This document shows positions 3,084 to 6,017 of a stretch of DNA of 15,107 nucleotides, one piece after another. The notes below the pieces were generated by a model. That model was not told the origin of the DNA. It saw nothing but the letters and a program-made list of their open reading frames with translations, and ran no database searches. Numbering within the stretch: the first letter of the stretch is position 1; each line of letters starts with the position of its first letter. Source of the DNA: Bacteroidales bacterium (GTDB taxonomy: Bacteria; Bacteroidota; Bacteroidia; Bacteroidales; UBA932); assembly GCA_017548805.1 (NCBI GenBank), contig JAFYZE010000073.1:1-15107 (forward strand), in the 5' to 3' direction. A program made the translations under genes and the position numbers.

Positions 3084-3974
3084 ATGAGATATGTGTTCGA
3101 AGGCTGCTGCACAAGTGCGGCTGATGCGGTGACGGCCCAGCACAGCGGGGCCGTCCGCATCGAACTTTGCAGCCGCCTCGACATCGGCGGCGTCACCCCC
3201 TCCGAATCCCTCCTCCGCGACACTCTCCTCGCCCTCGCCGAGGACTTCCTGATTTCCTCTCAGTTTACATCCACAACTCCTGCTTCTGATTCAGTATGCG
3301 CAGATATTGTTTCCTCTTCTCCCATCCTATCTGATGCCGTCCCTGACGCTCTCCCCACAGGAGGTTCTGGAGACTGTGTCAAAGTGAATGTTCTAGTCCG
3401 TCCCAGGGGAGGAGATTTCGTGTATTCAGAGGAAGAGATCCAAAAGATGCTGGAAGGCATTGAGATGTGTAAGCGCCTGGCAGTGAGAGATTCTGCCGGG
3501 AGGGAGCATCGAGTAAATGGTGTCGTTATCGGCGCCCTGCTGCCGGATGGCAGCATCGATATGGCGACGATGCGCAGGCTCATCGCCGCAGCGCGCCCGC
3601 TGGAAGTCACCTTCCACCGGGCCTTTGACGAATGCGCCGATGTGGAGCGCTGCTTGGAGGACGTCATAGCGCTCGGTTGCGAGCGCCTCCTGACGTCCGG
3701 CCATGCGGCGGACGCCTACGCCGGGCGCTTCGCCCTGGCCCGGCTCGTCCGCCAGGCCGCCGGCCGCATCATCATCCTCGCCGGCTGTGGCGTCCGTCCC
3801 CACAACATCGACGCCATCGCCTCCGCCGTCCTATCAGGCTCTATTTCCTCACCCTCCCTTTCCTCACTCTCCCTTTCTTCACCATCTTTTTCCTCCCCAT
3901 CCGATCGCTCTTCTTCCACCGGTTCCAGTTTCTCGCCCCTTGAATTCCATGCCTCCACCCTCACCGGCTGGTGA
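3084..3974 (+). CDS. cutC: CutC-family protein with Ser-rich insertions and a missing C-terminal tail
   Basis: A 296-residue cytoplasmic member of the CutC family, a TIM-barrel family historically linked to copper homeostasis but with no settled biochemical reaction. Family motifs are clear: RIELCSRLDIGGVTPS near the N-terminus, VNVLVRPRGGDF at 101-112, VTFHRAFD at 175-182, LTSGHAAD, and GCGVRP at 234-239. Two departures stand out. About 40 Ser/Thr-rich residues (roughly 54-98) separate the first strand/helix from the VRPRGGDF strand. Residues ~249-285 are Ser/Pro low-complexity sequence encoded by a 15-bp tandem repeat, inserted just before the conserved EFHAS (287-291). After EFHAS the protein stops within five residues, whereas E. 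coli CutC continues for some tens of residues. It may be a tolerated variant or an early stage of decay. The reading frame is intact, and neither other frame downstream restores the missing tail. Confidence 0.82.
   Translation: MRYVFEGCCTSAADAVTAQHSGAVRIELCSRLDIGGVTPSESLLRDTLLALAEDFLISSQFTSTTPASDSVCADIVSSSPILSDAVPDALPTGGSGDCVKVNVLVRPRGGDFVYSEEEIQKMLEGIEMCKRLAVRDSAGREHRVNGVVIGALLPDGSIDMATMRRLIAAARPLEVTFHRAFDECADVERCLEDVIALGCERLLTSGHAADAYAGRFALARLVRQAAGRIIILAGCGVRPHNIDAIASAVLSGSISSPSLSSLSLSSPSFSSPSDRSSSTGSSFSPLEFHASTLTGW
3834..3900 (+). repeat. 15-bp pyrimidine-rich tandem repeat inside cutC
   Basis: Units of 15 bp start at 3834 (diverged), 3849, 3864, 3879 and 3894 (partial); the best unit reads TCACCCTCCCTTTCC. 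Because 15 is a multiple of three, the repeat encodes a five-residue Ser-x-Ser-x-Ser unit in frame (SGSIS, SPSLS, SLSLS, SPSFS, SPSDR). Changes in copy number would alter protein length without a frameshift, and the tract is a likely slippage site. Confidence 0.85.
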
Positions 3975-3978
3975 CGCT

Positions 3979-4002
3979 GTTTTTGTTCTCGTAAACAAAA
4001 AC
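3979..4002. terminator. AT-rich inverted repeat just after the cutC stop
   Basis: GTTTTTGTT (3979-3987) and AACAAAAAC (3994-4002) form a perfect 9-bp inverted repeat with a 6-bp loop, beginning 5 bp after the cutC stop codon. The stem is A/T-rich and a T-run (4007-4012) follows four bases later, so it could be a weak intrinsic terminator. Its right arm also forms the left arm of the first unit of the next array, so it may simply be the edge of that array. Confidence 0.4.
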
Positions 4003-4169
4003 ATCCTTTTTTGTTCACAGCGAACACTTTTTCTGCCATTCTGTGAACAAAACAAGTAGTATTTGTTCACCACTGTCTTGTTTTTCCCGATTTCTGAACA
4101 AAAACACCCCTGTTTGTTCAATTCTGCCCCCTTTTTGCTGTTATTTGAACAAAAAGGGCGGATTTGTTC
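3993..4169. repeat. ~51-bp tandem array of GAACAAA-N9/10-TTTGTTC inverted repeats (four units)
   Basis: Left arms lie at 3993 (AAACAAA, diverged), 4045, 4096 and 4147; right arms TTTGTTC lie at 4010, 4062, 4113 and 4163. The period is 50-52 bp. In the last three units the arms extend to 9, 8 and 8 bp by matching flanks (for example GTGAACAAA/TTTGTTCAC at 4043-4051 and 4062-4070). Loop sequences are unrelated between units, while the arms are nearly invariant. Each spacer between units carries a T5 run at the same offset (4028, 4081, 4132). The pattern fits repeated protein-binding sites on one face of the helix (51 bp is about five turns) or repeated weak RNA hairpins. No known element is recognised. 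Confidence 0.85.
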
Positions 4170-4179
4170 AGACGGTAAT

Positions 4180-4290
4180 TATCCCTCACCTTTTCGCCGA
4201 GGGATATTGGGTGGAATGCCTTATCCCTCAGCATTTGGGTGAGGGATGTGAGGAGAAATGCCGTATCCCTCGGCATTTAGGTGAGGGATA
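4180..4290. repeat. 42-bp tandem array of TATCCCTC/GAGGGATA inverted repeats (three units)
   Basis: Inverted repeats lie at 4180-4187/4199-4206, 4223-4230/4240-4247 and 4264-4271/4283-4290, all with 8-bp perfect arms; their centres are exactly 42 bp apart. Units two and three also carry a second, overlapping inverted repeat: AATGC/GCATT (4215-4219/4231-4235) and AAATGCC/GGCATTT (4256-4262/4272-4278). Each overlaps the left arm of the first, so the two foldings exclude each other. The last unit ends 14 bp before the -33 box of the ettA promoter, and its centre (4277) lies about 61 bp upstream of the predicted transcription start. This placement suggests a regulatory role. Confidence 0.85.
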
Positions 4291-4303
4291 AGGAGGGGAG
4301 GGC

Positions 4304-4334
4304 TTTCAAGAGTCGTTAAAATGTTTTACATTTG
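4304..4334 (+). promoter_or_regulatory. Predicted Bacteroidota promoter of the ettA-glutamine synthetase operon
   Basis: TTTC at 4304-4307, a 19-bp spacer and TACATTTG at 4327-4334, a perfect TAnnTTTG -7 box. If the start lies 4 bases after the box, as expected for this promoter class, transcription begins near 4338, only about 3 bases before the ettA ATG. Confidence 0.75.
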
Positions 4335-4340
4335 CGCACT

Positions 4341-6016
<1,676 letters not shown>

Positions 6017-6017
<1 letters not shown>

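Follow-up and report, generated by a model that had tools for sequence, protein, structure and literature searches.

REP-type systems and the arrays of the window

Repetitive extragenic palindromes (REPs) of the E. coli and Stenotrophomonas type are the closest described systems to the repeats treated here: they are short intergenic palindromes present in many copies, with several families per genome, and the gene of their REP-associated tyrosine transposase (RAYT, or TnpA_REP) is flanked by its own palindromes. According to PMC8266576, the hairpin is recognized in these two bacteria as single-stranded DNA and cleaved beside it, and strand transfer follows. The repeats in question are two arrays of palindromes that abut inside one intergenic gap, at positions 3991-4290 of a 15,107-nucleotide stretch of a Bacteroidales genome (lineage UBA932; contig JAFYZE010000073.1 of assembly GCA_017548805.1), called the window below. 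With high probability, each array is a cluster of REP-like palindromes that serves as DNA substrate for a single-strand transposase of the RAYT/TnpA_REP type; the gene for this enzyme would lie in another part of the genome, and arrays 1 and 2 would represent two different REP-like families lying side by side.

Array 1 contains three intact palindromes of the form GAACAAA-N-TTTGTTC, spaced by 51 bp and with loops of 10, 10 and 9 nt. They read TGAACAAA-N10-TTTGTTCA at 4044..4069 (core 4045-4068) and 4095..4120 (core 4096-4119), and TGAACAAA-N9-TTTGTTCA at 4146..4170 (core 4147-4169), with the arms that stand beside a RAYT gene in a related genome, G309. An earlier note on this DNA had counted four units of ~51 bp; the 51-bp array does exist, but its leftmost palindrome, at about 3991..4018, is decayed. 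Array 2 consists of three ATCCCTC-N11-GAGGGAT palindromes at an exact 42-bp spacing, the first being TATCCCTC-N11-GAGGGATA at 4180..4206 (core 4181-4205), whose arms, loop length and 42-bp period recur in G309, and the others lying at 4222..4247 (core 4223-4247) and 4264..4290 (core 4265-4289). All these features are defined by sequence and carry no strand. The "three exact 42-bp units" of the same note are exact in spacing but not in content, the units being 67-76% identical to the first. Its observation that arms are conserved while loops differ is borne out by the pairwise identities, which in array 2 reach 24/24 in the left arm and 22/24 in the right arm, against 20/33 in the loop and 24/45 in the spacer; in array 1 the left arm gives 24/24, the right arms are the same in the three intact units, and the first 8 loop positions give 8/24. 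The periods of 51 and 42 bp are also, as had been remarked, close to whole helical turns, namely five and four. The arrays are not a product of chance, since an array of this kind arose in none of 60 Markov shuffles of the window and the folding of 3980-4292 has z-scores of -9.2 as single-stranded DNA and -8.5 as RNA, with no equally stable sequence among 100 shuffles in either case.

Clustered and tandemly reiterated REPs are known, for example, from Pseudomonas, as stated in PMC3733652, and REPs are also clustered in intergenic gaps as bacterial interspersed mosaic elements (BIMEs) or REP doublets forming hairpins (REPINs). The unit of the latter is made of two inverted REPs, whereas here one palindrome plus a spacer is repeated in one orientation every 42, 51 or 52 bp. 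The arrays of the window and its relatives therefore differ from inverted pairs by their head-to-tail order, mostly with a near-fixed period of 51/52 bp, and their loops, mostly of 9-16 nt, fall outside the 2-5 nt of the search in PMC6006769 but inside the 2-20 of the table in PMC3733652. A further likeness is to TnpA_Y1 subclass 2.6 (Bertels group 5), whose RAYTs, mostly from Bacteroidetes and thus from the same phylum, have non-canonical flanking structures without GTAG and copies of these elsewhere; PMC6006769 speaks of 'atypical secondary structures' lacking GT[AG]G, and assigns canonical structures to subclass 2.4. Compared by description, the RAYTs found here are mostly 283-350 aa long, while the table of that source gives 179, apparently a length, for subclass 2.6. 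Its main text does not contain the word 'tandem', and no description of fixed-period arrays of such kind in Bacteroidota was found in the searched literature, whose scope leaves out most subscription journals. Because GTAG is absent and no such arrays were found described, the units are best classed as an atypical form of REP-RAYT palindromes, which is arranged head-to-tail, has no GTAG tag and has a period of about five helical turns.

The proposed mechanism, extrapolated from TnpA_REP of E. coli and Stenotrophomonas, is that the RAYT would bind the palindrome as a single-strand hairpin, cut next to it and rejoin it, thereby seeding new copies. These would then multiply head to tail, each unit spanning about five helical turns where it is 51/52 bp long and about four where it is 42 bp long, and slippage, recombination or the RAYT itself are candidate routes of such multiplication at 42, 51 or 52 bp.

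Palindrome families in related genomes

A search with the array-2 arms in 400 genomes of the genus matched 19 of them, the reversed control matching 3 (relatives' genomes are labeled G and their loci L). The matching genomes hold 1 or 2 sites each, except G309, where 4 sites, all with N11 loops, follow each other at intervals of exactly 42 bp; single N11 palindromes of this family are present in G398, G370 and G490. G309 was picked by the array-2 arms alone, array-1 arms having had no part in the search, and one of its contigs, of 4.5 kb, carries a RAYT gene with 51-bp arrays of GAACAAA-N9-TTTGTTC, that is, with array-1 arms, on both sides. A 42-bp array with array-2 arms is located on the same contig, 1.5 kb from this RAYT. 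A second RAYT of G309 has GAACAAA-N10 palindromes on both sides, the two genes enclosed by the array-1 family being those of C13 and C48. As in described REP-RAYT systems, the family is also dispersed, with 22 palindromes in G309 and 26 in G370; G398 has 2, seven other genomes have none, and the reversed control gave 0 throughout. The corresponding counts for array 2 are 4 in G309 and 0-2 elsewhere. Exact array-1 palindromes were found in 4 of 177 RAYT stretches, some of which span one and the same gene, and these four correspond to three genes of G309 and G370. The earlier note had taken scattered copies in related Bacteroidales as a sign of a REP-like element, and such copies do exist, some relatives carrying the window's arms at numerous distinct positions, which puts the arrays on the REP side.

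Genome G001 harbors another dispersed family, GTGCGCA-N9..17-TGCGCAC, with 48 copies, 47 of them with a 13-nt gap, and with none in the reversed control or in nine other genomes. In 0.75 Mb of G001, 47 exact pairs occur at the 13-nt gap versus 1 for the remaining gap lengths between 8 and 21 taken together. Open reading frame (ORF) maps locate the arrays between differing genes, and at one site a 51-bp array directly adjoins a 72-bp array whose arms are different, which is the same layout as in the window.

Some further observations concern G001. Extra palindromic array families with periods of 72, 83, 102 and 104 bp are present at L103, L109, L128, L130, L138 and L140, and no RAYT was found for the families of these periods. 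The GTGCGCA arrays of L127, L128, L129 and L106 have a common outer flank, of up to ~160 bp where the contig continues, which suggests that array and flank may form a composite dispersed element. Several contigs start or stop within arrays, which therefore seem to break assembly.

RAYT genes, their arrays and their lineages

The RAYTs of these genomes contain the HUH and catalytic Tyr residues of a Y1 transposase fold, and the predicted structure of one from G001 has TnpA_REP as its best match. In the RAYT of L367, residues 235-306 form a well-predicted helical C-terminal part past the stretch matched to TnpA_REP.

Clustering was evaluated at 20 of the 26 RAYT loci of three genomes, flanks included: 2 from G001, the full 12 from G302 and 6 of the 11 from G003. 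Of 24 arrays with a period of 50-54 or 100-108 bp, 22 lie within 1 kb of a RAYT, a zone that totals 37 kb, and the remaining 160 kb contain 2 (p=2.3e-14). Such arrays occur at 11 of the 20 loci (G001 2/2, G302 8/12, G003 1/6), so that a single genome can contain up to eight RAYT genes with their own arrays. Because these three genomes had been noticed through having arrays, another 40 RAYT loci from the genus were taken, and 9 have arrays of these periods, not counting an additional 54-bp array at L463 that looks coding. The control, 250 kb in 16 stretches that came from 16 of those genomes, contained no array of period 35-125 bp, and 0 of 20 cutC loci had arrays. Arrays thus go with RAYTs, though many RAYTs are without tandem arrays. 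G302 sequence in which no RAYT was detected, 400 kb in all, contained 4 such arrays, one with a strong match to a RAYT-flanking family (E 5e-25) and three matching through their arms only, with weak BLAST values (0.017-0.19). Counts at exact geometry support two dispersed RAYT-flanking families: GGACA-n15, with 11 copies in G302 versus 0.9 at other gaps (0 in G001; 4 versus 2.2 in other loci), and GTCCTC-n16, with 6 versus 0.0 at other gaps and 0 elsewhere.

Array period, like two of the arm families, is distributed largely in accordance with the RAYT tree. When 89 RAYTs are placed in a tree, those with CATGTG palindromes on their flanks, four from 4 genomes, branch together to the exclusion of all others (99/89). 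The four flanked by CCTTGC, also from 4 genomes, fall in one 7-row clade with three rows that lack this label; in a group test that counts labeled rows only, each family requires one change, a value as low being reached in 11 and 5, respectively, of 500 shuffles. The distinction between periods of 51 and 52-53 bp requires a single change over 21 RAYTs, and 0 of 500 shuffles was as low. In another tree, made more quickly and with 72 rows, the 52-53 label stays whole, and the GAACAAA-arm RAYTs (L539, L541, L542) lie within the clade of other 51-bp RAYTs. It has been considered, as a possibility more doubtful than probable, that RAYT lineages inherit their array period, with 51 bp in one main clade and 52-53 bp in another, while arm sequences turn over, and that the RAYT, or a complex of RAYT and a partner, measures whole helical turns and builds or maintains the head-to-tail arrays. 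If this were true, a period-measuring RAYT would constitute a second mode of REP amplification. Palindromes like the atypical ones of subclass 2.6 acquire a definite form in the cases described here, with arms mostly of 6-9 bp, loops mostly of 9-16 nt and 51/52-bp tandem arrays whose period goes with the RAYT tree, and RAYT recognition and REP multiplication become directly testable on some thirty natural predicted enzyme-substrate pairs.

Several results weigh against reading the arrays as REP-like substrates of RAYTs. The window itself encodes no RAYT, and GT[AG]G, which marks canonical REPs, occurs 0-2 nt from the foot of the hairpin at 1 of 45 sites in eight site sets. Among the 30 best genus-wide RAYT profile hits, 3 have 51/52-bp arrays, one of them being the G001 locus, and the RAYT-flanking arms ACAGGA, TGAGGT, GACGACG, GGGAGC, GGTGCA and GGTGAG show no dispersed excess in the scanned stretches. 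The 51-bp label needs 3 changes in the 72-row tree, because L399 moves elsewhere, and L539, L541 and L542 do not group as a single clade (2 changes, with as few in 33 of 500 shuffles). Taking both trees, the period is tied to lineage better than the arms are. As for array 2, its exact palindrome is found in 0 of the 177 RAYT stretches, one of which, L372, has it with a mismatch, and no RAYT with array-2 arms on its flanks was found; closest to that come L535, whose arms are the variant ACCCTC, and L577, with a 42-bp array of other arms.

Alternative explanations and the ettA locus

This absence of exact ATCCCTC palindromes near RAYTs, together with a period of 42 instead of 51 bp, is what speaks for the leading alternative, in which array 1 is RAYT-linked and array 2 belongs to a separate class, such as tandem bidirectional terminators. 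It is considered rather unlikely, as the geometry of array 2 is of the same kind as that of array 1, its family recurs in G309 at 1.5 kb from an array-1 RAYT and as N11 singles in three other genomes, and the 42-bp array of L577, though with other arms, adjoins a RAYT. The latter array, with arms CCGAAGGA (L577:3640-3733), appears again elsewhere in the same genome, G398 (L529:14390-14472).

Plain minisatellites, generated by slippage at chance palindromes without any protein, would explain that array units are related copies whose number varies, and slippage may well drive local expansion. As a full account this is very unlikely: distant loci have arms in common but differ in loops and spacers, arrays cluster at RAYT genes, and the period and two arm families go with the RAYT lineage.

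The regulatory alternative concerns the neighboring genes. The arrays are placed, as the earlier note had it, upstream of ettA and glutamine synthetase, the order being cutC (3084..3974, + strand; Pfam CutC, 7.6e-55), arrays, ettA, encoding an ABC-F ATPase (4341..6017, + strand, ATG at 4341; Pfam ABC_tran, 9.1e-52; close relatives found), and then glutamine synthetase. If the arrays were operators, each palindrome would be bound in double-stranded form by a dimer that regulates ettA-glutamine synthetase, all sites facing the same side of the DNA, and the arms about two turns apart, the periods of 4-5 turns and the intergenic position 5' of ettA would agree with this. In the ettA loci of 80 relatives, two of which have less than 300 bp of upstream DNA, neither arm pair (with up to 1 mismatch) nor any hairpin array was found within 600 bp upstream of ettA, and reading by eye of 420 bp upstream in the first 30 gave no arrays. 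The arrays are therefore not a conserved ettA element, and the suggestion of a regulatory site for these genes is not supported. As the window's arms also lie at many separate places and flank RAYTs in relatives, and several arm families coexist within one genome, operators are scarcely credible. A CRISPR-like array, which the palindromic repeats and regular spacing might evoke, can be practically dismissed, because the spacers are related copies (24/45 in array 2), the loop varies inside the repeat and none of 11 scanned window proteins is a cas product.

As REP-like elements, the arrays might still influence the mRNA of cutC or ettA as a side effect. The sequence TACATTTG at 4327..4334 (+ strand) resembles a Bacteroidota -7 promoter box; because of this candidate box, the putative ettA promoter likely lies 3' of both arrays.

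When whole ettA loci were scanned for hairpin arrays, only L001, which belongs to G001 (1.3 kb upstream of ettA), and L067 (~4.8 kb downstream) were found besides the window, and a tandem-repeat scan added L045, with an array 5.5 kb upstream; all three have a period of 51 or 52 bp and arms unlike those of the window. Long repetitive ORFs, possibly annotated as proteins, run through the arrays at L001:1-760 and L067:11778-12791, because periods divisible by three leave several frames open. Arrays of this type may account for contig ends in draft genomes and for long repetitive, possibly spurious reading frames. At L024:5789-5978, immediately 5' of ettA, there is a 74-bp tandem repeat with no relation to the window arrays, and cutC of the window contains an internal 15-bp tandem repeat (3844-3895) that codes for a Ser-rich C-terminal tail.
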